In this document: piece by piece, positions 354 to 21,689 of the stretch
How the letters are laid out: every line of letters starts with the position of its first letter
Numbering within the stretch: the stretch's first letter is position 1
From: Phyllobacterium sophorae
GTDB taxonomy: Bacteria > Pseudomonadota > Alphaproteobacteria > Rhizobiales > Rhizobiaceae
Reading direction: 5' to 3'
DNA length: 64,000 nucleotides
Assembly (NCBI RefSeq): GCF_003010965.1
Contig: NZ_PGGM01000019.1
Coordinates: 1-64,000 of the forward strand
Program-made: the position numbers and the translations under genes
Notes under the pieces: generated by a model
Database searches by the model: none
Seen by the model: only the letters and a program-made list of their open reading frames with translations
Told to the model about the DNA's origin: nothing

Positions 354-1025
354 ATGACGTTGACAGCCTTCGAAATATTACGTTCCAGTTCACTACCAAT
401 CTTGCTTGAGCAGGAGATCGAGCGTGTCATTCTCGGTGGTCAATTCTCGCCTGGCGATCATTTGAACGAAAAGGAACTGGCGCTGCGCTTCGGCATCAGC
501 CGCGGTCCGGTGCGCGAAGCGTTGCGATCGCTCGAGGCATCTGGGCTCGTCGACCAGGTACCGAACCGCGGATTCTTTGTGCGCCGATTAAGTGCGTCCG
601 AGGCCTCGAACGTTTATGATGTGCGCTCCGTTCTCTTCGGCCTGGCCGGGAAACTTCTGGCCGAACGAATTACCGGTGACGGCATCGAACGGCTAAAACA
701 GCTCATGGCTGATATGGATGCCGCCGTCTTGGCAGATGATTTCAGGCTTTATGTGAAGCTCAACTTCGCCCTGCACGAATTCATCGTCGCCGCTTCCGGC
801 AATGAGGTTCTGGCTCATCAATATCTGACATTGGTTAAGCAGCTCAAGCTCTATCGCACGCACAGTCTGATGCTTGGCGAGGCGATGCATGCGTCGCATT
901 GCGAGCATCAAGTGATGGTTGATGCCATCGCTGCGCGCGATCCAGCCGCGGCCTTCGAAGCGCACTTCAAGCACGTCGAGGCGGCAAAAGGCCGACTGAC
1001 GTCGGCCACAACAAATCTTGTATAA
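354..1025 (+). CDS. GntR family regulator, FCD subfamily
   Basis: This 223-residue transcription factor probably controls the carboxylate catabolic island. A winged helix-turn-helix covers about residues 16-80, with the recognition-helix signature SRGPVREAL. The C-terminal all-helical FCD effector domain follows. Its likely metal/effector ligands are N137, H141, H185 and H207, with Asn where many relatives have Asp. Known FCD domains bind carboxylate ligands. The gene starts the plus-strand block, just after a candidate operator at 300-311, and the MmgE/PrpD gene follows within about 20 bases. It is a close paralogue of the regulator at 16,927-17,697, sharing SRGP, NRGFF and LAERIT stretches. 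The ligand is unknown. Confidence 0.9.
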   Translation: MTLTAFEILRSSSLPILLEQEIERVILGGQFSPGDHLNEKELALRFGISRGPVREALRSLEASGLVDQVPNRGFFVRRLSASEASNVYDVRSVLFGLAGKLLAERITGDGIERLKQLMADMDAAVLADDFRLYVKLNFALHEFIVAASGNEVLAHQYLTLVKQLKLYRTHSLMLGEAMHASHCEHQVMVDAIAARDPAAAFEAHFKHVEAAKGRLTSATTNLV

Positions 1026-1043
1026 GTATTGGAGACCTGCCAC

Positions 1044-2459
1044 GTGAATACCTCTTTCGACATTACGGCCCAGGCCATACGTTTTATCGAACGCACGACC
1101 TACGCGGACTTGCCGGATGAGGCTCTCATTGTGGGACGCCGGTGCATGGTTGATACGGTCGGATTATATCTGGCCGGCAGCCGTGAGGCATCCGTTCAAA
1201 TTCTGATCGCTGACGCCTTGGCCCAAGGTGGCCGGAAAGACGCGTCATTGCCCGGCAATGGACCCAGCAAAGTCCCAGCCCCTTTGGCCGCTCGGGTTTG
1301 GGGCACCGCCGGGCACGCACATGATTGGGACGACACGCAAGTTTCCCACGATCCGGCGCATGTGTACGGGCTGCTCACGCACCCATCGGTTCCACCGCTT
1401 ACCGCAGCGCTTATCGTTGCGAGCAAGGAAGGCAAGGTTGATGGACGTGAACTCATGCTCGCCTTTCAGGTTGGCTTTGAGGTCGAATGCAAGATCGCGG
1501 AATGGATGAAGCCGCGTCACTACCGCCGTGGGCATCACACCAGCGGAACCGTCGGCACGTTCGGCGCTACCGCGGCTGCCGCGAAGCTTCTGGGACTTCA
1601 GGGTGATAAGCTTGCTCACGCGTTTGGGTTAGCAGCAAGTTTCGCCGCCGGCATAAGGGTCAACTTCGGCACGATGACAAAGCCGCTTCATGTGGGGCGT
1701 GCCTGCGAGAACGGTGTTACCGCGGCGTTTCTGGCTGCCCGCGGCTTTGAGGCCGATCCATCGGCGCTTGATGGGCAATGGGGATTCTTCTCGGTGATGG
1801 GCGAAGGCTTTGATGCCGATAAAGCCGCCATGGGCTTTTCGTCGCCCTTGACCATTGTCGAGCCCGGCGTCAGCATCAAGCCTTACCCTTCGGGCATTCT
1901 CACCCATCAATCGATGGATGCCATGCTGAAGCTCGTCATCGACCATAAGCTGAAAGCAGAAGAGGTCGAACGTATCCGCTTTTTTGCCGGAAAGAATATT
2001 ATTGAACCGATCCGCTATCCGATCGCCCGGAACCATCTCCAAGCGAAATTCTCCATGCCGGCATTGCTTGCAATGATCATATTGTGTCGGCGGGCCAGCC
2101 ATCACGAGTTCGAGGATAGTTTCGTCGCTGGCAACGATATGCAGGACCTGCAGGCGCGGACGGATGTCATCAACGATCCGAGCATCGACGCGGCCGGCTA
2201 CGACAAGATACGCTCGCGCATAGAGGTGGATACCAAAGACGGCCGGACATTGGTGCAATGGGCAGACGAACGTTACCGCGGCGGTCCCTCCAACCCCATC
2301 AGCGATGCGGGGCTCGACGCCAAGTTCCGCATGTGCGCCGAGGGCGTAATTGATAGCGGCACGCAGGAAGAACTGTTGGGACAGGTGCGTGGTGTCGATG
2401 CGGGGGCGAATGTGCAGCGCATTTTACAGCTGATCAGCGGGGAAGGAAAAGCCCGGTGA
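1044..2459 (+). CDS. MmgE/PrpD family protein (copy 1)
   Basis: The protein belongs to the MmgE/PrpD family, which includes 2-methylcitrate dehydratase, cis-aconitate decarboxylase and iminodisuccinate epimerase. These enzymes act on polycarboxylates at the carbon next to a carboxylate. I chose GTG at 1044 because GGAGA sits nine bases before it; a TTG at 1029 lacks a site. The predicted protein is 471 residues. Visible family motifs are GHAHDWDDTQ, TMTKPLHVGR and SIKPYPSG. It is the same length as copy 3 (15,391-16,806) and shares VYGLLTHP, GFEVECKIAE and NFGTMTKP with it, so these two form one subfamily. The exact substrate cannot be told from sequence. Confidence 0.85.
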   Translation: MNTSFDITAQAIRFIERTTYADLPDEALIVGRRCMVDTVGLYLAGSREASVQILIADALAQGGRKDASLPGNGPSKVPAPLAARVWGTAGHAHDWDDTQVSHDPAHVYGLLTHPSVPPLTAALIVASKEGKVDGRELMLAFQVGFEVECKIAEWMKPRHYRRGHHTSGTVGTFGATAAAAKLLGLQGDKLAHAFGLAASFAAGIRVNFGTMTKPLHVGRACENGVTAAFLAARGFEADPSALDGQWGFFSVMGEGFDADKAAMGFSSPLTIVEPGVSIKPYPSGILTHQSMDAMLKLVIDHKLKAEEVERIRFFAGKNIIEPIRYPIARNHLQAKFSMPALLAMIILCRRASHHEFEDSFVAGNDMQDLQARTDVINDPSIDAAGYDKIRSRIEVDTKDGRTLVQWADERYRGGPSNPISDAGLDAKFRMCAEGVIDSGTQEELLGQVRGVDAGANVQRILQLISGEGKAR

Positions 2460-2512
2460 GCTGAGTTTGAGGAAGCCGTTCTGGAGAAACGGTGGTTAAA
2501 TGGGAGAGAGAA

Positions 2513-3481
2513 ATGACCTTGATGAAATCGATCGGTGCGGCCGTTCTTGGCCTTGCGACAATTGCAATTCTTTCGGCTACCAGCGCCAATGCTGACCCGT
2601 TGCCTTACCCTAGCAAGGTGGTCACGCTGGTGACGCATTCCAGCCCAGGTGGCGGCAGTGATGTTTTCCTACGCGAAATGTCGAAATATCTTGGCAAGTA
2701 TATCGACGCAACCTTCATCGTCGAAAACGTGCAGGGCGGAAGTGGTGCAAAAGCCATGGCCCGCGTTGCGACCGGCCCGGCTGACGGCAGCGTTTTCTAC
2801 GCAACCACACCGACATACATCTACACGTCGTTGATGAGCAAGCCGCAGAACACCTATAAGGACATGGATCCCCTGGTGAACATCTTTGCCGATAGCGAAG
2901 TGATCTATACGCGCACCGATGGTCCGTTCAAATCGCTCCAGGACGTTATCGAGCATGCAAAGAAGGAACGGGGTCGCTGGGGTGCTGCCAATCCCGCCTC
3001 GCTGGAGCGCCAGGCTGCCGAGCAACTGAAACGGGCTGCCGGTGTTACCCCGGCAATCGTCACCCATGAGGGTGGCGGCGACATGATGCTCAACGTCCTC
3101 AACGGAACTCTCGATATAGGCATCGGCGAGATTCAAGAGCTCCGTTCGCAGCTCGATGCCGGCAAGATTACGCTGCTGGCCACATTCAATCCCGAGCGTA
3201 TTGCCGAAAAACCCGATGTGCCGACGGTCAAGGAACTGGGTTACGACGTCAGTCTCGTCAAGTTTCGCGGTCTTGCTGGACCCAAGGGTGTGCCAGAATC
3301 GACAAAAGCGATCTGGGACGAAGGCGTGAAGAACTTGCTGGCTGATCCGGACTACAAGAAGGCCTATACGGCGGAGGTGCTCGTTCCCCAGCTCATCGGC
3401 CAGAAGGATTATCCGGCGTTCATCAACAATTTCGGCGCGTCGACGGAGGAATTCCTCAAATCGACAGGCGCCATCAAGTGA
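2513..3481 (+). CDS. tctC: TctC-type solute-binding protein
   Basis: This is the periplasmic substrate-binding subunit of a tripartite tricarboxylate transporter (Bug/TctC family, PF03401). ATG at 2513 is preferred over an upstream GTG because GGGAGAGAG precedes it closely. An N-terminal Lys, a hydrophobic stretch and an Ala-Asn-Ala region around residue 27 form a Sec signal peptide. The mature part starts with the family pattern PYPSK and then THSSPGGGSD, the carboxylate-binding loop. The protein has about 322 residues, normal for the family. A strong hairpin separates it from tctB. The family binds citrate, tricarballylate, nicotinate, aspartate and other carboxylates, so the ligand remains open. 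Confidence 0.9.
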   Translation: MTLMKSIGAAVLGLATIAILSATSANADPLPYPSKVVTLVTHSSPGGGSDVFLREMSKYLGKYIDATFIVENVQGGSGAKAMARVATGPADGSVFYATTPTYIYTSLMSKPQNTYKDMDPLVNIFADSEVIYTRTDGPFKSLQDVIEHAKKERGRWGAANPASLERQAAEQLKRAAGVTPAIVTHEGGGDMMLNVLNGTLDIGIGEIQELRSQLDAGKITLLATFNPERIAEKPDVPTVKELGYDVSLVKFRGLAGPKGVPESTKAIWDEGVKNLLADPDYKKAYTAEVLVPQLIGQKDYPAFINNFGASTEEFLKSTGAIK

Positions 3482-3486
3482 TGGCG

Positions 3487-3520
3487 TTGAATGGGGGCGG
3501 GCTTGCCCGTCCCCCTTCAA
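3487..3520 (+). promoter_or_regulatory. intercistronic hairpin after tctC
   Basis: Arms TTGAATGGGGGCGGGC and GCCCGTCCCCCTTCAA pair with one bulged T on each side around a TT loop. There is no following T-run, so an mRNA-stabilising or partly terminating element within the operon is more likely than a full terminator. Confidence 0.65.
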
Positions 3521-3544
3521 CCATTCAACCGGAAGGGCTGATCC

Positions 3545-4021
3545 ATGAGAAAAGACCTTATCAGCGGCCTCGTTCTCCTCGCGGTAGCGGGTATCTATTA
3601 CTCGTGGTCTGGAGCCATCGCTGACAGCACCTTGTCGGACGAGGTCGGCGCAGCAGGTTTGCCGCATGCGCTTGCCGTCGTTCTTGCCATTCTCGGCACC
3701 CTCCTGATCGGGCGGACATTGCTGGCGCGCAAGCCACGGACAGTAACGGTGGATGACAGCACCGATGAAAGCGATGCCGGTTTGCCGCGTGCGGTAGGAT
3801 TCCTGCTGTTTGGCGCGGCCTATGTGATCGTGCTGCCGTTCGCCGGATACGTGATTGGGACAGCGCTGTTGATCGGCGGTGTTGCGCTTTACGAGGGCGC
3901 CGCGCGCAACTGGACCGTACCGGCTGCCGCCATCGGCGGCGGCGTCTTTTACTGGGCCATATTCGTAAAATTGCTCGGCGTCCACCAGCCGGTGGGTTCG
4001 CTGATTCAAGGATTGTTCTGA
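3545..4021 (+). CDS. tctB: TctB-type small permease subunit
   Basis: This 158-residue integral membrane protein matches the small subunit of tripartite tricarboxylate transporters (TctB, PF07331). It has about four hydrophobic segments (roughly residues 5-20, 37-55, 80-110 and 118-140) and a charged loop near residue 65. The ATG at 3545 has AAGGG about eight bases upstream. Its stop overlaps the tctA start (TGATG), so the two are translationally coupled. It forms the transporter with TctC and TctA in the inner membrane. Confidence 0.85.
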   Translation: MRKDLISGLVLLAVAGIYYSWSGAIADSTLSDEVGAAGLPHALAVVLAILGTLLIGRTLLARKPRTVTVDDSTDESDAGLPRAVGFLLFGAAYVIVLPFAGYVIGTALLIGGVALYEGAARNWTVPAAAIGGGVFYWAIFVKLLGVHQPVGSLIQGLF

Positions 4022-5517
4022 TGACGACGCTTCTGGACATAATAAGGCTCTTGACGGAAACACCACTGGTTTTCGTTGCCATAGCTGGCTTGACCTGGGG
4101 CATCCTTGGCGGCGCCCTTCCGGGCATCTCCGCCTCGATAACGATGGCTCTGGTCTTACCCTTCACCTATACAATGGACCCGGCCCAAGCGATCGCACTG
4201 CTCGCTTGCGTCTATATCGGCGCAGAGTATGGCGGTTCAATTCCGGCCATTTTGATCAGGACTCCCGGCACGAACTCCTCTGCGGCAACGGTCATCGACG
4301 GTTATGAGCTTAACCGGCAGGGACGGGCCGGCGAAGCGCTCGGCATCTCGCTCATGTCGGGCGTGATCGGCAGCCTCTTCGGCCTGGCGATGCTGATACT
4401 GCTTACCGAGCCACTGTCATGGCTTGCGCTCGCATTCACCCCAGCATCCTATTTCGGACTGGGCATCCTTGGCCTCAGCGTCATCGCCTCCATGAGCGGA
4501 GGATCGCTGATCAAGGGTCTTGCGGCCGCCATCATCGGCCTGATGATCGCAACGGTTGGGACCGACCCAATATCCGGCGTAACACGCTTTACCTTTGATA
4601 TTCCCGACCTGCTCGGCGGTGTCGAGCCGGTCCTCGTGATGGTCGGACTCTTCGCGCTTACCGAATTGATGTGCCAATCGGGTTCAACCACGGTCACGCA
4701 GCTCAACCAGAAAATCAGGATCAAACTGCCAAGCCTTGCCGTCATGAACAAGCTCAAGCGCTCGCAGTTCATCGGCTGCATCCTCGGCCTGTTTGAGGGC
4801 CTGACGCCCGGCGGCGGCGGTTCGATCGCAGCCTTCATGTCCTACAACGAAGCAAAGCGCTGGTCGAAAACGCCGCATCTTTTTGGCAAGGGATCGGAGG
4901 AAGGCGTTGCGGCACCGGAGGCCGCCAACAACACAGTGGCAAGCACGGCCCTCATTCCGCTGCTCAGCTTCGGTATTCCAAGTTCGAATTCGACGGCCGT
5001 CCTGCTCGGCGGTCTGTTGATGCATGGCCTGATCCCCGGTCCGCGCCTGTTCGAGCAAAGCGCCCAGGTGATCGACAGTATCTATGTTGGCTCGTTCATT
5101 GCCATCATCGCCCAGATCGGTGTCGGTATCATCATTCTTCCGGCCTGTATCTGGCTGGTCAACCGGCCGCGACCCTACCGCGCCGGCTTTATCTTTGCCC
5201 TGATCCTGTCGGGCATCTTTACACTCAACAACAGTTTGTTCGATCTCGGTATCGCTCTTGTCCTCGGGCTCGTAGGCTTCCTGATGCGCCTGGCCGGGTT
5301 TCCCGTCTTGCCGATGATCCTTGGCGTGGTTCTCGGCCACATGGTTGAATCAAGCTATCGCCGGTCGCTTGTCCTTTCCGGCGGCGATCACATGATCTTC
5401 CTGCAGGATCCTATTGCCGTCGCGCTCTTGTCCATCGCTTTCATCTTCGTCGCTTTCTCGCTCAGCCGTGAACTGCGCGAGGCCCGCAAGGCCAAAATAG
5501 AGGAAGTTCCTTCATGA
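4021..5517 (+). CDS. tctA: TctA-type large permease subunit
   Basis: This is the large integral-membrane subunit of the tripartite tricarboxylate transporter (TctA, PF01970). At 498 residues it has the usual length and about 12 hydrophobic segments. Two diagnostic Gly/Pro-rich segments are visible: GGALPGISASITMA near residue 30 and GLTPGGGGSIAAF near residue 260, with GIPSSNSTAVLLGG further on. It overlaps tctB upstream and the second MmgE/PrpD gene downstream by four bases, so it is the centre of a tightly coupled operon. The transporter probably brings in the carboxylate used by the surrounding enzymes. Confidence 0.93.
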   Translation: MTTLLDIIRLLTETPLVFVAIAGLTWGILGGALPGISASITMALVLPFTYTMDPAQAIALLACVYIGAEYGGSIPAILIRTPGTNSSAATVIDGYELNRQGRAGEALGISLMSGVIGSLFGLAMLILLTEPLSWLALAFTPASYFGLGILGLSVIASMSGGSLIKGLAAAIIGLMIATVGTDPISGVTRFTFDIPDLLGGVEPVLVMVGLFALTELMCQSGSTTVTQLNQKIRIKLPSLAVMNKLKRSQFIGCILGLFEGLTPGGGGSIAAFMSYNEAKRWSKTPHLFGKGSEEGVAAPEAANNTVASTALIPLLSFGIPSSNSTAVLLGGLLMHGLIPGPRLFEQSAQVIDSIYVGSFIAIIAQIGVGIIILPACIWLVNRPRPYRAGFIFALILSGIFTLNNSLFDLGIALVLGLVGFLMRLAGFPVLPMILGVVLGHMVESSYRRSLVLSGGDHMIFLQDPIAVALLSIAFIFVAFSLSRELREARKAKIEEVPS

Positions 5518-6884
5518 ACCAGAGAGTTGCGACATCGACGCCGGTCGCGGCGAAGTTGGCAGAATTTGCGACCGCCGCGCTGCCACCCGCAGCGGTAAAA
5601 GCCGTCGGCCGACGCCTGCTCTTCGATATTGTCGGTCTTGCGGTTGCCGCCCGTCATACCGACTACGTCCGCTCGGCGCTGGCAAGCGCGACCGACGATG
5701 GAACCTGCACCGCCTATGGCCACAGCCGCGGCCTCGGACTTTACGACGCCGCCCTCGTTAACGGGACCGCCGCACACGGCGAGGATTTCGACGATACTTT
5801 TGAGGGGGGGCCGGTCCACGCCGGTGCGGTTATTGTCCCTGCGGTTGTTGCGATTGCCGAAAAGCGGGGCCTTGATGGTTGTGCAGTGATGCGCGGCATT
5901 GTGGTGGGCGCCGAACTCATGTGCCGCATGAGCCTGGTGGCTCCCCAGGCAACGCACAAGGCCGGCTTTCACCCCACCGCAATTTTCGGGGCGCCTGCGG
6001 CCGCCGCCGCGGTTGGGGCCGCACTCTCCTTGGATGCGGAGACGATCGGCCGGGCCTTCGGCATTGCGGGAAGTCTTGCTTCGGGCATTATCGAATATCT
6101 CGCCGATGGAAGCTCGACCAAGCGGCTTCATGCCGGCGCTGCGGCTCAATCCGGATTGCGCGCCGCGCTGCTGGCAGAGGCCGGCTTCACTGGACCGATA
6201 TCGGTTTTTGAAGGCGCGCATGGACTGTACAAAGCCTTTGCCCCCGCGAAAGTTCCGGACTTTACCCCTTTGATCGAGGATCTCGGCGATAGCTGGATCG
6301 TTGAGACACTGGCATTCAAACCCTATGCGTGCGGGACGATGACCCAGCCATTCATAGACTGCGTCCGAAAGCTTGCTGCATCCGGCGTCAAGGCCGATGA
6401 TATTGTTTCGATCGTTTGCAGTGTCGGTGAGGGGACGGTGCATCGGCTATGGGAGCCGCTTGCCGCGAAACACCGGCCCCCCAATGGTTACGCAGGCAAG
6501 TTCTCAACACCCTACTGCATGGCTGTCAGCTTTCTCGACGGCGAGGCGGGACTCGGCCAGTTTACCGATGAGCGTGTCAGGGATCCGCACGTTCAGGCTC
6601 TGGCGGCCAAGATTTCCTACGAAGTAAATCCCGACGATCCCTATCCACGAAATTTCACCGGACATTTGAAGGCGGTTCTGAAGGATGGATCTGTGCGGGA
6701 ATTTTACCAGCCCCACATGCGAGGCGGTTCAAAAGAGCCCTTGCCGGATGCCGAACTGTCGAGCAAATTCGCGGCAAACCTGCGTTTCGGCGGATTTTCT
6801 GATGCTGCCATCGCAGCGCTGCGCACCGCGCTTGACCGGATCGCAGGCGGAGACAGTGTCGAATTGTCCGGTGCGCGCGCATGA
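5514..6884 (+). CDS. MmgE/PrpD family protein (copy 2)
   Basis: This 456-residue protein is a second, more divergent member of the MmgE/PrpD family. It shows AHGEDFDDTF in place of the HAHDWDDTQ motif of copy 1, followed by HAGAVIVPA, and KRLHAGAAAQSG in the active-site region. Those differences set it apart from copies 1 and 3 and suggest a different step or stereoisomer. ATG overlaps the tctA stop, with GAGGAAG just upstream, so translation is coupled to the permease. The SDR gene begins at its stop. Dehydratase, decarboxylase or epimerase activity on a polycarboxylate is the family expectation. Confidence 0.85.
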   Translation: MNQRVATSTPVAAKLAEFATAALPPAAVKAVGRRLLFDIVGLAVAARHTDYVRSALASATDDGTCTAYGHSRGLGLYDAALVNGTAAHGEDFDDTFEGGPVHAGAVIVPAVVAIAEKRGLDGCAVMRGIVVGAELMCRMSLVAPQATHKAGFHPTAIFGAPAAAAAVGAALSLDAETIGRAFGIAGSLASGIIEYLADGSSTKRLHAGAAAQSGLRAALLAEAGFTGPISVFEGAHGLYKAFAPAKVPDFTPLIEDLGDSWIVETLAFKPYACGTMTQPFIDCVRKLAASGVKADDIVSIVCSVGEGTVHRLWEPLAAKHRPPNGYAGKFSTPYCMAVSFLDGEAGLGQFTDERVRDPHVQALAAKISYEVNPDDPYPRNFTGHLKAVLKDGSVREFYQPHMRGGSKEPLPDAELSSKFAANLRFGGFSDAAIAALRTALDRIAGGDSVELSGARA

Positions 6885-6895
6885 GGGGAGAGGAC

Positions 6896-7654
6896 ATGAC
6901 AAATCGAGAACTGGAAGGACGTGTCGCGCTGGTGACTGGCGCTTCGCGCAATATCGGGCGCTCCATAGCGCGAACACTCGCGGACGCAGGAGCAAAAATC
7001 GCCGTCGTGGCCCGCTCGGATCGGGCCGCGGCGGAGGCTGTCGCGCACGAGATCGAGGCGATGGGCGGATCTGCCATCGTCCTGCTTGGTGACGTCGCGC
7101 AGGAAGCCGATGCCGAGCAGCTTGTCGGGGAAACGGTCAAAAGATTGGGGCGTCTTGATCTGCTCATCAACAATGCCGCAATCAGGCGTGAAGCACCAAT
7201 CGAAACGCTGGCGTTTTCAGACTGGCGTGAAGTGATGGGCGTGACACTGGATGGCGCATTCCTCATGAGCCGCGCTGCAATACCGCATTTGCTCGCCAGC
7301 GACCGGGGGGCGATCATCAACATTGGTGGCCTTACGGCCTATACCGGCGCGGCGCACCGTGCCCATGTCATATCGGCAAAAGCCGGACTTGACGGATTCA
7401 CCAAGGCGCTTGCAAATGAGCTCGGATCGCGCGGTGTCACGGTCAATCTGGTTTCTCCTGGAATGATCGACACCAACCGGGCTCACAGCTCGTCCGGCGG
7501 TGACCCGGCCCATCACAATACGACGCGCACGCTGGTCGGCAGGCGCGGAACGCCTGAGGAGGTGGCCGCGGCAGTGCTGTATCTTGCCGGATCAAATGCC
7601 CGCTTCGTTACCGGTCAGACGCTGCATGTAAACGGCGGGGCGTTTCTGCCCTGA
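6896..7654 (+). CDS. SDR-fold protein lacking the catalytic Ser-Tyr pair
   Basis: The protein is a short-chain dehydrogenase/reductase fold of 252 residues. ATG at 6896 follows GGGGAGAGGA; an upstream ATG at 6881 is less likely. The cofactor motif TGASRNIG (14-21) and the NNA motif (92-94) are present. The catalytic tetrad is not: K162 remains, but the position of the catalytic Tyr is V158, the Ser position falls at G144/G145 (NIGGLTAYTG), and the Asn region reads VTLDG. It may bind NAD(P) without classical oxidoreductase chemistry or use another residue such as H157. It ends the tightly packed operon. Confidence 0.8.
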   Translation: MTNRELEGRVALVTGASRNIGRSIARTLADAGAKIAVVARSDRAAAEAVAHEIEAMGGSAIVLLGDVAQEADAEQLVGETVKRLGRLDLLINNAAIRREAPIETLAFSDWREVMGVTLDGAFLMSRAAIPHLLASDRGAIINIGGLTAYTGAAHRAHVISAKAGLDGFTKALANELGSRGVTVNLVSPGMIDTNRAHSSSGGDPAHHNTTRTLVGRRGTPEEVAAAVLYLAGSNARFVTGQTLHVNGGAFLP

Positions 7655-7741
7655 TCCGGCCGCATGCGGCGCGCGTGAAGGCGAGGTATTGGTGCTGGCA
7701 AGCCAAAGCCAATTCAAGTTCAGGTTTTTCTCAATGAAAGG

Positions 7742-8308
7742 ATGGCATTAGCAGTGTCAGATCCTTGCTCCGGGTTCCAATCGCCACGTCTTCGCTCGCT
7801 CTTCATCCTTTGCTTCAAGATCGGAATCTTAAGCTTTGGCGGCGGCCTCACCGGCTGGCTTTATCAGGGCTTCGTCCTCAAAAATCGCTGGATAGAGGAA
7901 GACGACTTTGCAAGCAGCCTGGCCATATCGCAGATGTTGCCGGGTGCGAACGTCGTCAATCTGGTCATATGTATGGGTGAGCAGCTTCGTGGTCCAGTGG
8001 GCGCGCTCAGCTGCGTTCTCGGGTTTCTCGTTGGACCGTTTTTTGCAGTCATAGCACTTTGCCAGGTCTTCGATGCGCTCGCAGACTTTGCCTTGCTGCC
8101 CGCGATTTCCGATGGCGTTGCATTTGCCGCAATGGGGTTATTGGTTGTCATGTGCATGCGTGGCGTGCGCCGAGCGCTGCGGTTTCCGCCTTCCGTTGCC
8201 ATAATTGCATTGACGGCCGTTCTCGTGGGCCTGCTGCAATTGCCGCTCATTCCGGTCGTTGTGCTGATCGCACCGATCAGCGTCGCTTTGGCGTGGCGGA
8301 GGGCCTGA
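7742..8308 (+). CDS. Chromate-transporter family protein, first half (CHR domain)
   Basis: This 188-residue membrane protein is a single CHR domain (PF02417). It shows the family motifs FGGGLTGWL near residue 36 and MLPGANVVN near residue 65, with about five hydrophobic segments. ATG at 7742 and GTG at 7754 are both possible; AAAGGA precedes them. The next gene supplies the other CHR domain, as in split ChrA pairs. Known ChrA proteins export chromate, but many homologues have unknown roles. Its position at the end of a carboxylate operon makes anion export or exchange in this pathway a reasonable guess. Confidence 0.8.
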   Translation: MALAVSDPCSGFQSPRLRSLFILCFKIGILSFGGGLTGWLYQGFVLKNRWIEEDDFASSLAISQMLPGANVVNLVICMGEQLRGPVGALSCVLGFLVGPFFAVIALCQVFDALADFALLPAISDGVAFAAMGLLVVMCMRGVRRALRFPPSVAIIALTAVLVGLLQLPLIPVVVLIAPISVALAWRRA

Positions 8309-8310
8309 CG

Positions 8311-14274: not shown

Positions 14275-15375
14275 TCATCCGGGTGCAGCGCCGCGCCGGC
14301 GCGCAATTCTTTCAAATATCTTCAGCGTCAACAGGATCGTCGTCATGACCACGGCGATACGGGTGATCTGGAACGCGGTCACGGTTGTGGCGTCGAGATG
14401 CATTGCTGTCGCCGTCAGCACCATTTCGGTGACGCCCGCCGGTGCGACGGCGAGCAGGCTTGTGACAAAGGACAAACCAGTCGTTGCCGATAGAACCCAC
14501 GCTGTCGCCATGGCCATGGCGAGCAGGAATGTCGTCGTCACAAGCGCTGAGAAGGTCACGCGTGAAAGCCGGCCCAGCAAAGATCGGCGGAAACGGCAGC
14601 CAAGCCAAACGCCGATGACGATCTGCGCCCCCACCAGAGCCGCAGATGGGACGGCGAAGGGGCCAAGGCCGAAACCCGCCACAAGACTGCCGATCAGGGC
14701 GGGGACAAGCAGCCATGAGTTCGGTATTTTCAGCCGCCGCACGAGATAGCTGGCAAGGACCGCCACAATGAACAGCGCGATAATCGGCATCAACTCGGCT
14801 CTGAAGGCAACCGGCACCGGATCGATGCCGCCATTTTCGCCGAAAAACGCAACAAGGAATGGCACTGTCGTCACGATCGAGGCGACGCGGATAAGGTGAA
14901 CAAGCGCGACCGTATCGCTATCGGCGCCCTTTTGATGGGCGAGGATGGCCATCTCTGCAACCCCTGCAGCAGCCGTGGCAAAGAAAGCGGTTCTAAGGTC
15001 AAGCGCGGCGAGCTTCCTGATGATCAAGGCGGCGGCCATGGTTGTCGCGATCATCAAGGCTGTCGCACCCAGCATGAACGGCAGCATTGCAATTGTTGCG
15101 AAGACCACCGCGGGAACAAATCGCAAGCCTATGGCAAGCCCGACGACGACCTGACCCAATTCACGTCCATAGGGGAGCGCCAGAATCGGCGCACCGAGGA
15201 TCGATGCTGCGGCACAGGTAAGCAACGGACCCAGCAGGAAGGGAAGGGGCATCGCAAACAATCTGGCAGCCAGGGCCCCCAGGACGCCGAGCAGAAATGC
15301 CAGAGCAATTTTGGCAGGTTCACGATCAAACAAACGCTGACCGTGCCCATCATGCATTGTCCCGGAATCCGGCAT
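14275..15375 (-). CDS. AbrB family membrane protein
   Basis: The protein has 366 residues and about ten hydrophobic segments, with the duplicated AbrB membrane domain (PF05145). Diagnostic stretches are PLPFLLGPLL near residue 43 and IPNSWLLVPALIG in the second half, plus two copies of an APAGVTEM/AAGVAEMA helix. AbrB proteins have been reported as regulators of ammonia monooxygenase but many sit in carboxylate-use operons, as here, between a MmgE/PrpD gene and a dehydrogenase. Transport of the pathway substrate is plausible. The exact start is uncertain: a second ATG lies six codons downstream. Confidence 0.8.
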   Translation of the reverse strand: MPDSGTMHDGHGQRLFDREPAKIALAFLLGVLGALAARLFAMPLPFLLGPLLTCAAASILGAPILALPYGRELGQVVVGLAIGLRFVPAVVFATIAMLPFMLGATALMIATTMAAALIIRKLAALDLRTAFFATAAAGVAEMAILAHQKGADSDTVALVHLIRVASIVTTVPFLVAFFGENGGIDPVPVAFRAELMPIIALFIVAVLASYLVRRLKIPNSWLLVPALIGSLVAGFGLGPFAVPSAALVGAQIVIGVWLGCRFRRSLLGRLSRVTFSALVTTTFLLAMAMATAWVLSATTGLSFVTSLLAVAPAGVTEMVLTATAMHLDATTVTAFQITRIAVVMTTILLTLKIFERIARRRGAAPG

Positions 15376-15390: not shown

Positions 15391-16806
15391 TCAGTCGACG
15401 GAGATCAGCAGCGATGTCAGATCGCTCAGCGACGTAACGTTCTCCAACCCCCGCACGAGTTCGACGATCGCGTTTGCCCTCGCCTGCGTCATCCCGGCGA
15501 AGTCGGCATTCTCGCGAAATTTGCCGGCGACGTCGTCATAGCTCATGGGAAAGGCAGGACTTCCCTTGCCGAAATCAGCGCGTCCCGAGATTTTGCGACC
15601 GTCTTTGAGGTGGATGTCGAGGAGGGTCGTCATCAGGTGGTAACCGGCGGCTTCAGCTTCGTCATCGATGACGAAATCAATCCGTTCGATCATGGCCTTG
15701 ACGTCGTCGCGTTCGACTGCGGCATCGGTGAATTCATTGAGACCGGCGCGGCGATCGAGCAATAGAATTGCCATGCAAAATTCCATCGAGAACTTTGCCT
15801 GTAATTCGTCCTTGGGACGGTGATGGATGAGTGCGTTCGGCATGTTGGAGTTGGTGCCGACGCGCACGCGCTCGACATCCTCGGCGCGGATATTGTTGTC
15901 CGTAATCAGCCGCAGCATCTCCGTCATTCCGGGATGCGTGAGCGAGCCCGATGGATGCGGCTTTATGGATATGCCGGGGTCGGCAAAAGTCCAGGGCGCA
16001 CCGAGTTTGTTGAAGATCGCATTCTCGTCATAACCGCCGCCGGCCGCAGAGAAGAAGCCGCGCGGCGCTTCCAGGATACGCGCCGCGGCCGTCCAGCCAT
16101 AGGATGCAAATTGGGCGGCGGCGACACCGCTTTCAGACGAGCGGCCGGCATGGAAAGGCTTTGTCATCGTGCCGAAGTTCTCGCGCAGGCCGGCAGACTG
16201 GCTGCCAGCGATCGAAAGCGCGCGCTGGGTAGTCGGAACATCGAACTTCATCAACTTGGAACTGGCTGCGGCAGCAGCGAATGTTCCGCATGTCGCCGTT
16301 GCATGAAAACCGGTCTGATAGTGGCGCGGGGCAATCGCTTCGGCAATCTTGCACTCGACTTCGACGCCGAGGTGATAGGCCAGCATGAGGTCTTTGCCGG
16401 AACCATTCACGAGTTCGGCGACAGCAAGTGCTGCGGGAAGTGCAGGCGCTGTCGGATGGGTCAACAGACCATAGACGCGGTCCTTGGCGACGGCGAGCTG
16501 CGTATCGTCATAGTCGTCGGCGTGAATGCCAACCCCGTTGGCAAAGGCTGCAAAGCGTGGGGCCACTTTGCGTCCACCACCGATGACCGTTGCGGCGCCC
16601 TCGGCAAGGCCCAAATTGTCAAGGTGCTGACGCACGAGCTCGCCGCTCTTGGCAACAGAACCAGAAAGGGCCAAGCCCAAGCCGTCGAGTATGGATTTCT
16701 TGCCAAGGTCAATAACGTTTGACGAGAGTTCATCAAAGTCCGTTTCAACAATGAAACTGGCAACGTATTTCGTCAGCTCGACATTTTCCTGGTGTTTCTG
16801 GTCCAT
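15391..16806 (-). CDS. MmgE/PrpD family protein (copy 3)
   Basis: The 471-residue product is a MmgE/PrpD member closely related to copy 1. ATG at 16,806 is chosen because AGAGGA lies seven bases upstream; the frame stays open to 16,881 but crosses the candidate operator. Motifs are IHADDYDDTQ, TMTKPFHAGR and SIKPHPSG. It shares VYGLLTHP, GVEVECKIAE and NFGTMTKP with copy 1. Two such paralogues plus the divergent copy 2 in one island suggest sequential dehydration/rehydration or epimerisation of related polycarboxylates. A likely promoter and operator lie just upstream, after the regulator gene. Confidence 0.85.
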   Translation of the reverse strand: MDQKHQENVELTKYVASFIVETDFDELSSNVIDLGKKSILDGLGLALSGSVAKSGELVRQHLDNLGLAEGAATVIGGGRKVAPRFAAFANGVGIHADDYDDTQLAVAKDRVYGLLTHPTAPALPAALAVAELVNGSGKDLMLAYHLGVEVECKIAEAIAPRHYQTGFHATATCGTFAAAAASSKLMKFDVPTTQRALSIAGSQSAGLRENFGTMTKPFHAGRSSESGVAAAQFASYGWTAAARILEAPRGFFSAAGGGYDENAIFNKLGAPWTFADPGISIKPHPSGSLTHPGMTEMLRLITDNNIRAEDVERVRVGTNSNMPNALIHHRPKDELQAKFSMEFCMAILLLDRRAGLNEFTDAAVERDDVKAMIERIDFVIDDEAEAAGYHLMTTLLDIHLKDGRKISGRADFGKGSPAFPMSYDDVAGKFRENADFAGMTQARANAIVELVRGLENVTSLSDLTSLLISVD

Positions 16807-16873: not shown

Positions 16874-16885
16874 ATTGTCAACAGT
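16874..16885. promoter_or_regulatory. GntR/FCD-type operator, ATTGTCAACAGT
   Basis: This is the reverse complement of the element at 12,114-12,125. It lies 68 bases upstream of the copy-3 MmgE/PrpD start and just after the stop of the regulator gene on the same strand, so the MmgE/PrpD-AbrB-dehydrogenase genes probably have their own regulated promoter. Confidence 0.6.
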
Positions 16886-16926: not shown

Positions 16927-17697
16927 TTAAATGTTTTCGCCGGATGCCGTGTCGGACGCAGTTTTGCGCCCGGGCTTTTGCGGCGCGACCTGGTCGCCAA
17001 AGCCGGGTTGCCCGGCCTGGCGGGTGCGGACAATCCCATTGAGAATATGGGTACGGGCCGCAATCAAGCTGCGTACGGGGTCGCGTGCCTCAAGGGCATC
17101 GACAATGGCGCGGTGCTCCTGATTGGAGATATGCAGCACGTCCCTGCTCGAGAGAGCCCGATAGCGCTGGATGTGCAGTTCACGTACGAAGCTCTGGTAG
17201 ATGAGTTCCAGCCGGTTGTTTCCGGCCATGTGCGTAAGCTGCTTGTGGAATTCCAGATTAACCGGGTAGTAAATATGAACGTCGCCAAGTTTGACGATTT
17301 CGTCCATGCGCGCCAAGAGCGCTCTCAAGATGGCAATCTGGGCATCGGTGATACGCTCTGCCAGCATCATCGCCATGCAGCCAAACACACCGGCACGTGC
17401 CTCGGAAAGATCCTGCGCCTCATCATTGGTGAGGGCGCGGATGAAAAAACCACGATTGGGGATAATTTCAATCAGGCCCATCGCTGCCAATGCACTGCAA
17501 GCCTCGCGGATTGGGCCGCGGCTTACGCCAAGGCGCTGCGACAGACCATTCTCGTTGACCCGTTCATTCGGCTTAAGCTCGCCATCGATGATCATGCGCT
17601 CGATCTCCGCTTGCACCACATTTGCAAGCGAACGGGTGCGAAGAAAATCGATCGCGGACAAATTGTGCGGGGCGTTGGTAGTGTCTGTCATGAGCAA
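16927..17697 (-). CDS. GntR family regulator, FCD subfamily (paralogue)
   Basis: The 256-residue protein has an N-terminal winged helix-turn-helix (about residues 25-90, recognition segment SRGPIREAC) and an FCD effector domain with likely ligands N147, H151, H195 and H217. The Asn variant matches the regulator at 354-1025, and the two share long stretches including NRGFF and MLAERIT/LLAERIT. They therefore probably recognise similar DNA, fitting the repeated ATTGTTGACAAT element. A Lys/Arg-rich tail of about 30 residues follows the FCD domain. It is flanked by the ABC importer upstream and the MmgE/PrpD operon downstream. Confidence 0.9.
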   Translation of the reverse strand: MLMTDTTNAPHNLSAIDFLRTRSLANVVQAEIERMIIDGELKPNERVNENGLSQRLGVSRGPIREACSALAAMGLIEIIPNRGFFIRALTNDEAQDLSEARAGVFGCMAMMLAERITDAQIAILRALLARMDEIVKLGDVHIYYPVNLEFHKQLTHMAGNNRLELIYQSFVRELHIQRYRALSSRDVLHISNQEHRAIVDALEARDPVRSLIAARTHILNGIVRTRQAGQPGFGDQVAPQKPGRKTASDTASGENI

Positions 17698-17835: not shown

Positions 17836-19554
17836 TCAGCCGCGCGCATTCATTTGCGAGCCGCCAAGGACCGGAACCCGGTTGGCAACAAAGACGACGG
17901 CGAAGGAGGCAACCAGCAATATGATGCCAAGAACGCATATTGCGCCAAGGTCACCACTCTCATTGAGATCGTAAATGATCACCGAGACGAGTTTGGTATT
18001 GGCGGTTGTCAGCAGAATCGTTGCTGAGAGTTCGCGGATCGTGCCGACGAAGACAAAACACCACGCCGCGACGACGCTTGTTCGCAGCAACGGAGCGGTA
18101 ATGTCCCACAAAGTCCGCAAACGTGATGCGCCCATGATGCGGCCAGCTTCTTCAAGTTCGGGATGAACGCCTGCGAAGGCGGACGACATTTGCTGATAAC
18201 CGGCGGGCAATTCGATGGTCATGAACGCGATAAGCAGGATCCAGATTGTGCCGTAGAGTTGGAATGTCGGGTTGGCGTAGCTCAGGAACAGGCCAACGCC
18301 GAGGACAATCCCCGGAATGGCTACGGGCGCGGTTGCCAGGACGCCAAGGTAACGCGCCCCCGGGACCGAGCGGCGGATGACAAGATAGGATACGACCAGC
18401 GCGATCGCCGTAACCGCGGTTGCAGTCAGGAACCCAAGGAGGAAGGTGTTCCTGAGCGCAAGCTGGGTTGCGGAGAATTCGAACAGAACGAACTTCCAAT
18501 GGCGCAGCGTCAGCGTATCGAAATTGATGGGATCGCCGACCGTACCCGTGAAGGCCGTCTTCAAGATCGCAAGATAGGGTAAAAGAATGGTCAGGCTGAG
18601 GATGCAAAAGACAAAGGCGACGGCAACCCATTTCCAGCTGCCGAGCTTGGTAATCCGCGGTGTACCGCTCTTGCCCCCAAGAACCGTATAGCCTTTGCGC
18701 CCGAGAATTGATTTTTGGGCGCGCAGCAGGACGACGGTGATGATGAGCAGCGGCAACGCGGCAGCGGCCGCAAGTCCAAGACGCGGTGGAAACTGGAACA
18801 GGCTCCAGATCTTCGTCGTGATGACATGGAAACCAGCGGGCAGCGCCAGGATGGCGGGAGAGCCGAACATGGTCAGCGCCTGGAGGATGGCAATCAATGT
18901 ACCAGCCAGCATTGCCGGCAATACAAGGGGAATCGTGACTTTGCGCAATGTCGTCATCGATTTGCCGCCAAGGATCGACGAAGCGTCCTCCAGATCAGAC
19001 GGAACCTTGTCGAGCGCATTGGCAACGAGCGTGAAAACATAAGGGAAAGTGAAGCAGGCGATGGCGAAGACCAGACCACTGAAGGTGTAGATATTCACCA
19101 GATATTGAGACGGATCGAGGCCAAAGGCGCTTCGGTAGATGATATTGACAATGCCGCTATTGGGCGCGGCGAGAATTTCATAGGCGATGGCGCCGATGAA
19201 GGGCGGCGTAACGAACGATGCCGTCACCAGCATGCGAATGATCCGCCTTGCAGGCAGGTCGGTTCGCGCAACCAGCCAGGCCATTGGAGTAGCGATGAGG
19301 CAGGCAAGAATGCCAACCGCAAGCGCCATTGAGATCGCCAGTCCGTACGCCCGCAGCAGGGTTGGATCAGCGACAAGAGCGATGAAGTTGTCAAGCGTTG
19401 CTCCCCCACCCGTATCGCTGCGCAAGCTGTAGTAGGCGAGCCAAAACAATGGCAGCAGAACCAGAACGCTCAGGACAAGGGACAACAGAGCGAAGGTGGG
19501 CCATGAAAGGTCGATGCTGCTGCGCCGACCCTGAACCTGAGCGATGCTGGTCAT
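17836..19554 (-). CDS. ABC transporter permease, fused double domain
   Basis: This 572-residue inner-membrane protein contains two binding-protein-dependent permease domains in one chain, as in FbpB/AfuB-type importers, with about 12 hydrophobic segments. Each half has an EAA-type loop: LEDASSILGGKSMTTLRKV near residue 200 and LEEAGRIMGASRLRTLWDI near residue 495. ATG at 19,554 follows directly after the binding-protein stop; a TTG two codons earlier is possible. It completes an importer with the binding protein and ATPase upstream. The family carries iron, thiamine, phosphonates or organic anions. Confidence 0.88.
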   Translation of the reverse strand: MTSIAQVQGRRSSIDLSWPTFALLSLVLSVLVLLPLFWLAYYSLRSDTGGGATLDNFIALVADPTLLRAYGLAISMALAVGILACLIATPMAWLVARTDLPARRIIRMLVTASFVTPPFIGAIAYEILAAPNSGIVNIIYRSAFGLDPSQYLVNIYTFSGLVFAIACFTFPYVFTLVANALDKVPSDLEDASSILGGKSMTTLRKVTIPLVLPAMLAGTLIAILQALTMFGSPAILALPAGFHVITTKIWSLFQFPPRLGLAAAAALPLLIITVVLLRAQKSILGRKGYTVLGGKSGTPRITKLGSWKWVAVAFVFCILSLTILLPYLAILKTAFTGTVGDPINFDTLTLRHWKFVLFEFSATQLALRNTFLLGFLTATAVTAIALVVSYLVIRRSVPGARYLGVLATAPVAIPGIVLGVGLFLSYANPTFQLYGTIWILLIAFMTIELPAGYQQMSSAFAGVHPELEEAGRIMGASRLRTLWDITAPLLRTSVVAAWCFVFVGTIRELSATILLTTANTKLVSVIIYDLNESGDLGAICVLGIILLVASFAVVFVANRVPVLGGSQMNARG

Positions 19555-19560
19555 GATCAA

Positions 19561-20610
19561 TTACGTCCCAAAGAATTTTTCATAATTGGCTTTGATGGTC
19601 TGAATTTCGGGCTCGAGCTTTGCCGGATCAGAATGAAGGACCTTGATCTTCGAAAGCGGCGTGCGCCCTTGCTTTTCCTTCACGTCAGGGTGGAACGATC
19701 TCAGCCCGCCAAAATCACTGTTGAGCTGCTGCGCATCGAGCGAAAACAGGAACGCATAAAAGAGCTTGGCAGCATTTGGGTGCGGGGCTTGCTTGAGCAC
19801 CGCGGCATTTCCCACGGCAAGCGGGGTCCCTTCGTCAGGATAGACGATCTTGATCGGCTTGCCCTCGTCGATAAGTCGGAAGACATTGTATTCATTGCCA
19901 TCGACTTCGAGCGCCCGTTCCCCTTGAGCCAGCTTTTTCGGCGGCTCTGTAGAGGACTGGACTTGCATGATGTTCTGCTTGCCGAGTTTTTCGAAATAGT
20001 CCCAGCCAAGCATCTGGCTAAGGACGAAGGTTGAGGTCATCACGGTGCCGCTATACCCGGGATGGGCCTTCACCATCTTGTCCTTAAAGCGCGGATCAAG
20101 CAGATCTTCCCAGGTCTTGGGGGCGTCTGCTTCTTTCATCAGATCCGTCCGGTAGGCCAATACGGAAAGGTGGGCGCGGTAGGCGGCAAAGTTACCGTCC
20201 GGATCACGTTCATCTGCCGGCCATTTGTCGGCCACTTCCTGCGGCACCATGGGTTCGAGCCAGCCTTGACGCTTGAAGTACTCGAAATGCACGGCGTCTG
20301 ACGTTTCGATGACGTCGGCATTATAAATGCTCGTCGAATATTCCTGGCCGATCCTTTGGAAGACGCGCTCGGATCCGGCGCGCTCAACCTGCACGTCGAT
20401 GCCGGGAAATTTGGTCTTGAAGTGTTCAGCCAGCTTTTCCGCGACCGCTACGTCCGTGGCAGTGTAGAACACGACCTTGCCTTCCGCCTTGGCCGCTGCT
20501 TCCAGCTCGGGGGTAATTTGATAAGGTGCCGGTGCCTCGGCCCGGGCAGCGGCGGGTATTGCCGCAAGTCCCGAAGCCAAAAGAGCGGCAGACAGCGCTT
20601 TCTTCCACAT
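19561..20610 (-). CDS. ABC transporter substrate-binding protein, FbpA/AfuA-like fold
   Basis: This 349-residue periplasmic binding protein has a signal peptide ending near AAARAEA (residues 20-26). ATG at 20,610 is preceded by GGGAGG at good distance. The fold is that of the ferric-iron/thiamine/2-aminoethylphosphonate binding class, opening with EGKVVFYTATD. The paired iron-binding tyrosines of FbpA are not visible; the corresponding region reads DGNEYNVFRLI. I therefore infer an organic anion rather than iron. Unlike the other binding-protein genes here, no hairpin separates it from its permease. It lies between the ATPase and the permease in one operon. Confidence 0.85.
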   Translation of the reverse strand: MWKKALSAALLASGLAAIPAAARAEAPAPYQITPELEAAAKAEGKVVFYTATDVAVAEKLAEHFKTKFPGIDVQVERAGSERVFQRIGQEYSTSIYNADVIETSDAVHFEYFKRQGWLEPMVPQEVADKWPADERDPDGNFAAYRAHLSVLAYRTDLMKEADAPKTWEDLLDPRFKDKMVKAHPGYSGTVMTSTFVLSQMLGWDYFEKLGKQNIMQVQSSTEPPKKLAQGERALEVDGNEYNVFRLIDEGKPIKIVYPDEGTPLAVGNAAVLKQAPHPNAAKLFYAFLFSLDAQQLNSDFGGLRSFHPDVKEKQGRTPLSKIKVLHSDPAKLEPEIQTIKANYEKFFGT

Positions 20611-20624
20611 GCATATTTCCTCCC

Positions 20625-21689
20625 TTATTGCGCGAGCGCCCGGCATTTCTCTGGTGGGAAATGCAGCCAAACCTCCTGGCCAACCGGGATCGCAACGTTG
20701 ACTGGTGCGACGGTGCGCACCATTTCTCCACCAGCGATGGAGACGAGATAATCCCGGTGCGAACCGAGATAGATTTGCCGCGTGACCGTGCCGACAGTCG
20801 TGTTGGTATTGGCGCCGTTCGGCTTGGTCGAAAGCTCAATGTCATGGTGGCGGATGGAGACGGCTGTCTTGCTCGATCCGTCGGTGGTTCCATTGCCGCA
20901 CCGCAAAACCAGACCGGCCTGACAAAGAACGGTGTCCTTGTCGTTGCGCGTTCCGCTGAAAATATTGGTTCCGCCAATAAACCGCGCGACGAACTCGGTC
21001 GCCGGCCGTTCATAGATATCTTCGGGCGAGCCTGACTGTTCGATGCGCCCGTCGTTCATGACGACGATGATGTCCGCCGTCGTCATCGCTTCGGCTTGAT
21101 CGTGAGTAACGTATACGGTGGTATAGCGAAACTCGTCATGAAGCCTGCGGATTTCGAAGCGCATTTCCTCGCGCAGGTTCGCATCCAAATTGGACAGCGG
21201 CTCGTCAAGCAGCAGGATTTCAGGTTTGATCACCAGTGCTCGCGCCAGGGATACGCGCTGCTGTTGTCCGCCCGACAGTTCACCCGGATATCTTTCCGCA
21301 AGCGCGAGAAGCTGAGTGGCGGAAAGGATCGTGCGGACAAGTTCGGTAACTTGCGCTTGCGGCATTCGCCGCAGCTTCAGCCCGTACGCCACGTTCTCAT
21401 AAACAGTCATATGCGGCCAAAGCGCATAGCTTTGGAAGATCATCGACATGTTGCGGGCTTCCGGCGGCACCGTGGAATGAGCCGAGGATACGGTCTTTCC
21501 ACCGACTCGAATTTCTCCGCCATTTGCGGGAACGAAGCCGGCGACAAGGCGCAGCGTCGTCGTCTTGCCGCAACCCGACGGTCCCAGGAGGCAGACAAGT
21601 TTTCCCTTGTCCACCGACAAGTTCACGCCTTTGACAACCGTCAAACTGCCGTAGCTTTTCGTCAAACCGTCTAATTCCAGGAATGCCAT
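20625..21689 (-). CDS. ABC transporter ATP-binding protein, PotA/FbpC type
   Basis: The 354-residue ATPase has Walker A GPSGCGKTT (36-44), Q-loop FQSYALWPHM, signature LSGGQQQRV, Walker B EILLLDEP and switch HDQAEAM. A C-terminal TOBE-like domain of about 110 residues follows. ATG at 21,689 sits right after GGGAGG; an upstream TTG at 21,701 is less likely. It is first in the importer operon and powers the permease at 17,836-19,554. A shared operator element lies about 70 bases upstream, so the importer probably belongs to the same regulon as the catabolic genes. Confidence 0.92.
   Translation of the reverse strand: MAFLELDGLTKSYGSLTVVKGVNLSVDKGKLVCLLGPSGCGKTTTLRLVAGFVPANGGEIRVGGKTVSSAHSTVPPEARNMSMIFQSYALWPHMTVYENVAYGLKLRRMPQAQVTELVRTILSATQLLALAERYPGELSGGQQQRVSLARALVIKPEILLLDEPLSNLDANLREEMRFEIRRLHDEFRYTTVYVTHDQAEAMTTADIIVVMNDGRIEQSGSPEDIYERPATEFVARFIGGTNIFSGTRNDKDTVLCQAGLVLRCGNGTTDGSSKTAVSIRHHDIELSTKPNGANTNTTVGTVTRQIYLGSHRDYLVSIAGGEMVRTVAPVNVAIPVGQEVWLHFPPEKCRALAQ

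Follow-up and report, generated by a model that had tools for sequence, protein, structure and literature searches.

The region described here lies in Phyllobacterium sophorae (assembly GCF_003010965.1, contig NZ_PGGM01000019.1), at positions 354-21689 of a stretch of 64,000 nucleotides (C10:1-64000) that we refer to as the window, and it forms a gene island that looks like an undescribed breakdown pathway for a small two-acid compound. The assembly consists of 49 contigs, and Phyllobacterium are the nearest named relatives when judged by the island. Scans with Pfam and NCBIfam located the families of 20 encoded proteins, the last open reading frame (ORF) extending to 21701, and confirmed the families claimed in a sequence-only reading of the same DNA (three MmgE/PrpD proteins, four dehydrogenases, a hydrolase and four transport systems), while adding an SDR oxidoreductase at 6881-7654 that was missing from that earlier gene list. 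The same scans found no CoA ligase, aldolase or DUF1537 kinase among the 20 island proteins, as had been stated earlier, and a search with the MmgE/PrpD N-terminal family (E 0.001) found no MmgE/PrpD gene in the P. sophorae genome beyond the three in the island. The genes and predicted operator sites are arranged as follows.

300-311, no strand: operator, exact match to WTTGTYRACAAW, upstream of unit 1; also exact upstream of the corresponding unit in the relatives scanned, in some of them twice
354-1025, forward: GntR/FCD regulator 1 (GntR-1), by Pfam
1029-2459, forward: MmgE/PrpD-1 (MmgE-1), catalytic residues kept, with an 8-residue insert common with MmgE-3
2492-3481, forward: TctC binding protein, by family scan
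3545-4021, forward: TctB, by family scan
4021-5517, forward: TctA, by family scan
5514-6884, forward: MmgE/PrpD-2 (MmgE-2), in which His replaces the epimerase Tyr
6881-7654, forward: SDR oxidoreductase, by family scan
7742-8308, forward: short ChrA 1, by family scan
8305-8847, forward: short ChrA 2, start placed from the overlap (ORF listed from 8059)
8844-9857, reverse: PdxA-like dehydrogenase with a remodelled substrate site, by Pfam/NCBIfam and residue comparison
9854-10957, reverse: TTCa, tartrate dehydrogenase-type with canonical residues, by NCBIfam (ORF to 10984)
10968-12044, reverse: TTCb, tartrate dehydrogenase-type with Cys for the substrate Arg, by NCBIfam (ORF to 12107)
12114-12125, no strand: operator, one mismatch, between TTCb and the hydrolase
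12187-13137, forward: fluoroacetate-dehalogenase-like alpha/beta hydrolase, by Pfam, structure matches and residues
13192-14262, reverse: IPMDH-like dehydrogenase with Gln for the catalytic Tyr, by Pfam/NCBIfam and residue comparison
14275-15375, reverse: AbrB-duplication membrane protein, by Pfam/NCBIfam
15391-16806, reverse: MmgE/PrpD-3 (MmgE-3), start at 16806 presumed (the ORF to 16881 would cover the operator)
16874-16885, no strand: operator, one mismatch, upstream of MmgE-3
16927-17697, reverse: GntR/FCD regulator 2 (GntR-2), by Pfam
17836-19560, reverse: ABC permease with two fused permease domains, by Pfam
19561-20610, reverse: ABC solute-binding protein, start presumed (ORF to 20670)
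20625-21689, reverse: ABC ATPase, start presumed (ORF to 21701)
21761-21772, no strand: operator, two mismatches, upstream of the ABC unit

The island is one unit, as seen from the co-inheritance of its genes across 149 genomes (its own and those of relatives) from 126 genera. At an identity of at least 74%, MmgE-3 is present in 14 of these genomes and in seven genera (weaker MmgE-3 paralogues lift the raw tally from 14 to 19 genomes), and the hydrolase (E up to 1e-100) is found in exactly those 14 genomes and in no other. The IPMDH-like gene (E up to 1e-120) occurs in the same 14 genomes and additionally in G119, at 57% identity, and the PdxA-like gene (E up to 1e-90) in 11 genomes, all of them within the 14. 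These genes also remain close together, with start-to-start distances to MmgE-3 of 3.2-6.7 kb for the hydrolase, 2.2-4.8 kb for the IPMDH-like gene and 6.5-8.5 kb for the PdxA-like gene, so that both the hydrolase and the IPMDH-like gene lie less than 7 kb from MmgE-3 in all 14 genomes. The probability that MmgE-3 and the hydrolase would agree exactly on the same seven of 126 genera by chance is about 1e-11, ignoring shared descent and transfer and with limits chosen once the data had been seen. A chance stack of unrelated genes is rejected by this co-occurrence, and the comparison of gene neighborhoods for co-occurring sets, which had been proposed as a check in the sequence-only reading, came out largely in favor of a coherent set.

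Gene order was compared by searching relatives with the window proteins by tblastn, dropping matches that covered less than half of the query; G008 and G062 entered this comparison as short loci only. In the six genomes of the genus covered over the whole island (G002, G005, G006, G009, G013 and G018), the complete run of 19 genes that begins with MmgE-1 and ends with the ABC ATPase is present in the same order, and at the coverage used GntR-1 was recovered in only one of them (G005). One of the six, G013, and the P. zundukense plasmid record NZ_CP104969 very probably come from a single strain and do not count as separate witnesses. The order is also kept, without TTCb, on plasmid CP030828 of Neorhizobium sp. 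NCHU2750, and other genera (G043, G056, G061, G073 and G127, as well as Pacificitalea) carry much of the set in a different order. The rearranged island of G127 additionally holds genes for a CoA-transferase, an acyl-CoA dehydrogenase and a CitE/RipC-like lyase, and the earlier statement on the lack of CoA ligase and aldolase genes stands for the 20 proteins of the island.

A wider view was obtained from an MmgE-3 alignment scan of named genomes, in which the best 80 of 361 relatives were taken as loci, spanning Phyllobacterium, Mesorhizobium, Rhizobium, Aureimonas, Bosea, Microvirga, Paracoccus, Achromobacter, Ramlibacter, Polynucleobacter and others; some of these are the same strains as the genomes above, and many are metagenome bins. 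Neighbors were counted within 10 kb of MmgE-3 by clusters of like proteins, as an earlier count had mixed in distant paralogues (e.g. TctA at about 31%). Among the 80 loci, the IPMDH-like gene was found in 57, the PdxA-like gene in 55, the hydrolase in 51, the ABC permease in 48, a TctA-type gene in 37 (a cluster that still includes second, distant TctA genes), TTCb in 36, an AbrB-type gene in 35, a fourth MmgE/PrpD protein (MmgE-4) in 34, a rhodanese in 33, TTCa in 24 and the ChrA pair in 15. At least one of the IPMDH-like, PdxA-like and hydrolase genes is present in 76 loci, at least two in 58 and all three in 29, leaving L104, L111, L124 and L127 with none of them. When only the 59 fully flanked loci are considered, the hydrolase is present in 42, the IPMDH-like gene in 44 and the PdxA-like gene in 41, and an ABC permease or TctA-type gene accompanies MmgE-3 in 58. 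Genes for LeuC- and LeuD-type subunits occur in four related Betaproteobacterial loci.

The four matches to WTTGTYRACAAW, at 300, 12114, 16874 and 21761 (0, 1, 1 and 2 mismatches, respectively), coincide with the starts of four transcription units. Within the window alone such matches are near chance, with three sites at up to one mismatch against 1-4 in five shuffles, and 27 at up to two mismatches against 11-25; what makes the operator convincing is its conservation in relatives. The 80 MmgE-3 loci contain 64 exact sites against 0-1 in five order-1 shuffles, and 198 sites with up to one mismatch against 8-22. Of these 198 sites, 180 lie at the start of a cluster ORF, a zone reaching from 350 bases ahead of the start to 150 bases into the ORF and covering 23% of all positions, and the remaining sites lie inside cluster genes (6) or elsewhere (12). 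An operator is found at a cluster ORF start in 62 of the 80 loci, with at least three such sites in 40, and it stays at unit starts despite the changed gene order, which supports a shared regulon. We conclude that the shared operator is real, as a conserved motif and predicted regulator site; the GntR proteins would presumably bind it (sites WTTGTYRACAAW / AATTGTCAACAATT), with either GntR being a candidate. The earlier view that a shared operator supports a single program is thereby upheld, both by the conservation of the operator in relatives and by the co-inheritance of the genes.

All three MmgE/PrpD proteins carry both Pfam domains above cut-off, and none of the NCBIfam scores obtained for MmgE-1 and MmgE-2 (MmgE-3 was not included) reached the equivalog cut-off of the 2-methylcitrate dehydratase PrpD, the best being 25.6 of 575 bits and 55.8 of 950 bits, respectively. 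The catalytic positions of the MmgE/PrpD family have been described, together with the observation that the known substrates have a four-carbon dicarboxylate backbone in common (PMC12290011). Mapped through iminodisuccinate (IDS) epimerase alone, the His, Asp/Glu and Lys positions are all present in MmgE-1 and MmgE-3, together with the catalytic Tyr that marks the two known isomerases, i.e. IDS epimerase and (S)-(R)-methylsuccinate isomerase. Both proteins thus have the residues of a two-base epimerase (Tyr, His and both Lys), and MmgE-2, with His at the place of Tyr, does not; the MmgE-4 of relatives has the Tyr. Tyr alone is no proof of the reaction, because IRG1 of B. subtilis has it too. 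Over the aligned positions, identity to IDS epimerase is 30% for MmgE-1 and 27% for MmgE-3, and both differ from it by an 8-residue insert (..VYGLLTHP) in the carboxylate-binding loop, which is also absent from B. subtilis IRG1, MmgE-2 and MmgE-4.

The hydrolase has the same active-site set as fluoroacetate dehalogenase and Alr0039-type alpha/beta hydrolases, and its best matches in PDB are 3qyj (Alr0039) and 9c9f. Asp123, Arg124, Arg127, Asp147, His168, Trp169, Tyr229 and His289 are invariant in all 51 relatives compared, with roles presumably as in the fluoroacetate dehalogenase site, and on these residues the protein keeps that site (Asp nucleophile, Arg pair, His/Trp/Tyr pocket, Asp and His). 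It differs from the dehalogenase in its context, being confined, at E 1e-100, to the 14 of 149 genomes with MmgE-3 and followed directly by a rhodanese gene in 30 loci.

Three of the four decarboxylating dehydrogenases depart from their ordinary relatives at substrate positions; sequences shorter than 300 residues were left out of this comparison (2 of 57 IPMDH-like, 2 of 24 TTCa and 1 of 36 TTCb). The PdxA-like protein resembles PdxA and D-threonate 4-phosphate dehydrogenase in its three metal-binding His and Lys, and it differs from them in that Glu141, His142, Thr288 and Phe/Tyr297 replace the E. coli substrate residues in all 55 sequences compared. Four of the five residues that bind the substrate in E. 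coli PdxA (His136, Thr137, Lys274, Asn283 and Arg292) are lost, with only the Lys kept, and a substrate site lost in this way would account for a path that does without a kinase. With the site lost and no kinase gene present, the idea that the protein works as an ordinary PdxA on a phosphorylated sugar acid was rejected. In the IPMDH-like protein, Gln133 stands at the place of the catalytic Tyr beside an NPHPI motif (55 of 55), and the protein does not reach the cut-off of any of the 16 NCBIfam models listed, its best score being 293.0 against a required 409.8 bits. By score and at the Tyr it lies outside the ordinary 3-isopropylmalate, isocitrate and homoisocitrate dehydrogenases. Both TTC proteins pass the cut-off of TIGR02089 (470.4 bits), TTCa with 565.0 and TTCb with 560.8 bits. 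With tartrate dehydrogenase 3flk as reference, TTCa keeps the substrate Arg of the FRREFDQY helix and is canonical at Arg and Tyr in 22 of 22 sequences, whereas TTCb has Cys116 at the Arg position, along with an invariant Arg112, in 35 of 35. Of the two dehydrogenases described as tartrate-type in the sequence-only reading, TTCb departs from ordinary members at a substrate residue, as do the enzymes labelled IPMDH- and PdxA-type there; with TTCb, IPMDH-like and PdxA-like residues remodelled in this way, tartrate itself does not follow as the substrate.

Controls from the P. sophorae genome, i.e. a LeuB-like gene (C11), a TTC-like gene (C48) and a PdxA (C46) that keeps GHT, N and R, have the usual residues; no alignment was obtained for the Iso_dh paralogue L140, which is not counted here. 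A further PdxA-like gene of the same genome (C45) has altered substrate motifs that are in part common with those of the island protein, so that the altered PdxA branch extends beyond the island. It lies within L144:4364-10976, beside genes for TctC, TctA, a DRL/SAF oxidoreductase and a GntR/FCD regulator. A structure model of the IPMDH-like protein was not used, its mean pLDDT being 74 and the stretch 127-147, with Gln133, falling below 50. The model of the ABC binding protein matches iron-, citrate- and sugar-phosphate-binding proteins, including the citrate-binding MctA, and narrows the ligand little.

Taken together, we assign a probability of about 55% to the reading that the island is a single GntR/FCD-controlled regulon that imports and degrades a 2,3-substituted succinate, i.e. 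a C4 1,4-dicarboxylate backbone with a leaving group and further substituents. The gene set, the co-inheritance, the shared operator and the catalytic residues kept or lost were read from the sequence, and from these we infer how the steps follow one another, which class of substrate is used, what each transporter does and that the GntR proteins bind the operator. The substrate would be imported by the tripartite tricarboxylate transporter (TTT) and/or the ABC system; the Asp nucleophile of the dehalogenase-like hydrolase would displace the leaving group beside a carboxylate, leaving a hydroxyl; MmgE-1 and MmgE-3 would set the stereocenter beside the carboxylate by deprotonation and reprotonation; and the IPMDH-, TTC- and PdxA-type enzymes would oxidize the hydroxyl with NAD and release CO2, yielding a 2-oxo acid for central metabolism, while the released anion may be exported by ChrA. 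This keeps, as a conjecture, the sequence of hydrolysis, epimerization and oxidative decarboxylation of di- or tricarboxylates suggested earlier. The backbone common to the known MmgE/PrpD substrates (PMC12290011) was counted in favor of a succinate, as was the likeness of the ABC binding protein model to citrate-binding MctA, among others, and the LeuC/LeuD-type subunits of the four Betaproteobacterial loci fit substituted malates. The Pseudomonas itaconate/methylsuccinate cluster likewise includes an MmgE-type isomerase, and G127 adds the CoA-transferase, acyl-CoA dehydrogenase and lyase; the island of the window differs in that no CoA-transferase, acyl-CoA dehydrogenase, hydratase or CitE-type lyase is found among its 20 proteins, which include oxidative decarboxylases instead.

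Several observations weigh against this single pathway. The PdxA-like gene is absent from G043, G073 and G127 at E 1e-90, the identity and E limits were chosen after the results were seen, and the 80 loci are related and hence not independent samples. An operator at a cluster ORF start is lacking in 18 of the 80 loci, 14 of which are Betaproteobacterial by title. The top structural match of the ABC binding protein by E-value is the iron-binding HitA, the Gln for Tyr could mean that the IPMDH-like protein decarboxylates unusually or not at all, and the four dehydrogenases may act side by side on different substrates instead of belonging to a single path. Gene blocks occurring independently in relatives, named beforehand as a finding that would count against a common pathway, were largely not seen, the exceptions being G119, the Rhizobium sp. 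BG4 plasmid, where the 27 kb read hold the 354-8847 part, GntR-2 and the IPMDH-like gene (90% identity) without MmgE-3 or the hydrolase, and, within 10 kb of MmgE-3 in the 59 fully flanked loci, the 17 that miss the hydrolase and the 15 that miss the IPMDH-like gene. The BG4 stretch and the 17 loci without hydrolase, together with the shuffling of gene order and the four transport systems, would suit a scavenging island in which several independent organic-acid pathways share one regulator and have no single substrate; since MmgE-3, the hydrolase and the IPMDH-like gene coincide in the same 14 genomes, we regard this as quite unlikely.

Two narrower substrate classes appear similarly improbable. 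In the case of tartrate and epoxysuccinate stereoisomers, the hydrolase would open epoxysuccinate, an MmgE protein would act as tartrate epimerase and the TTC enzymes would oxidize meso-tartrate, in agreement with the score and canonical residues of TTCa and with mandelate-racemase-type genes in G127 and in clusters of 12 and 4 of the 80 loci, this superfamily including tartrate dehydratases. However, the remodelled pockets of TTCb and of the IPMDH-like and PdxA-like proteins are unexpected for plain tartrate, and a plain tartrate operon was rejected on this basis; the known cis-epoxysuccinate hydrolases have, to our knowledge, other folds, and neither a glycerate kinase nor a pyruvate kinase domain turned up in Pfam scans of the 20 proteins. 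Degradation of a halogenated dicarboxylate (e.g. fluoro- or chloro-malate or -citrate) would be consistent with the dehalogenase residues that the hydrolase keeps in 51 of 51 relatives, and with the ChrA pair as a possible anion exporter, but such compounds are rare in nature, whereas the cluster is widespread. In addition, Pfam scans found no fluoride exporter among the 20 proteins, and hydrolases that dehalogenate may show promiscuity, as in a described case that has a Ser nucleophile and also acts as an esterase (PMC13230308).

A sulfur-substituted succinate or malate (e.g. a thiol adduct of fumarate) is a further candidate that we consider unlikely, in which the hydrolase would free or expose the sulfur, a rhodanese would handle it and ChrA, whose pair is present in 15 of the 80 loci, would export a sulfur anion. 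This lead comes from the relatives and not from the window itself. The rhodanese, present in 33 of the 80 loci, is about 532 amino acids long (e.g. L069:14073-15671), and Pfam scans of two members showed three to four rhodanese stretches. In all 30 loci with both genes, from Alpha- and Betaproteobacteria, it lies directly behind the hydrolase on the same strand, with a 4-base overlap in nine (larger negative distances, to -1020, reflect mechanically over-long ORFs), and three of the 33 have no hydrolase in the stretch covered. Its homologues match 110 plasmid records at less than 60% identity, and in the six annotated regions picked for reading a cysteine dioxygenase gene adjoins the homologue in three (Aminobacter, Paraburkholderia sprentiae and Azospirillum) and lies 3.5 kb from it in a Variovorax plasmid, with none in the regions from Sodalis and Marinobacter sp. 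M3C; this frequent proximity hints at sulfur. Against it, the rhodanese is absent from the P. sophorae genome, G002 and G005 in a search that finds it in G061, G043 and G127, ChrA and rhodanese occur together in only four of the 80 loci, and we know of no sulfur displacement by this hydrolase class. A widespread and so far undescribed sulfur-succinate/malate pathway seems rather unlikely as well; in it the dehalogenase-fold hydrolase would remove sulfur beside a carboxylate, the MmgE epimerases would serve both stereoisomers, three remodelled beta-decarboxylating dehydrogenases of new specificity would finish the skeleton, and the Phyllobacterium branch would have lost or replaced the rhodanese.

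Some neighboring genes were recorded in addition. The Marinobacter sp. M3C plasmid NZ_CP092285 (L148) carries its rhodanese gene near genes for MmgE/PrpD, CoA-transferase, CoA ester lyase and acyl-CoA dehydrogenase, resembling the extra genes of G127. In four Betaproteobacterial metagenome loci (L100, L101, L110 and L112), the ChrA pair, rhodanese, mandelate-racemase-type, TauD-type and LeuC/LeuD-type genes lie by MmgE-3, along with the hydrolase in three. Within the window, an NTP_transf_8 nucleotidyltransferase gene (22780-23772) adjoins the island, and PADLOC gave no match for two ORFs downstream of it, this one included; a further catabolic-looking stretch at 24806-34457 encodes an NMT1-type ABC importer, an IlvD/EDD dehydratase, an RraA-like protein and a TRAP transporter.

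No paper describing the cluster was found in the literature searched, outside of which most subscription papers lie and in which not every search was aimed at the cluster. The proposed regulon, spread over many plant, soil and water bacteria, ties together at least four enzyme subfamilies of unassigned specificity, i.e. clades of MmgE/PrpD, PdxA (without the substrate site), IPMDH (without the catalytic Tyr) and TTC (without the Arg). Identification of one substrate would make all four subfamilies easier to annotate, and the shared operator would offer a simple inducer screen.

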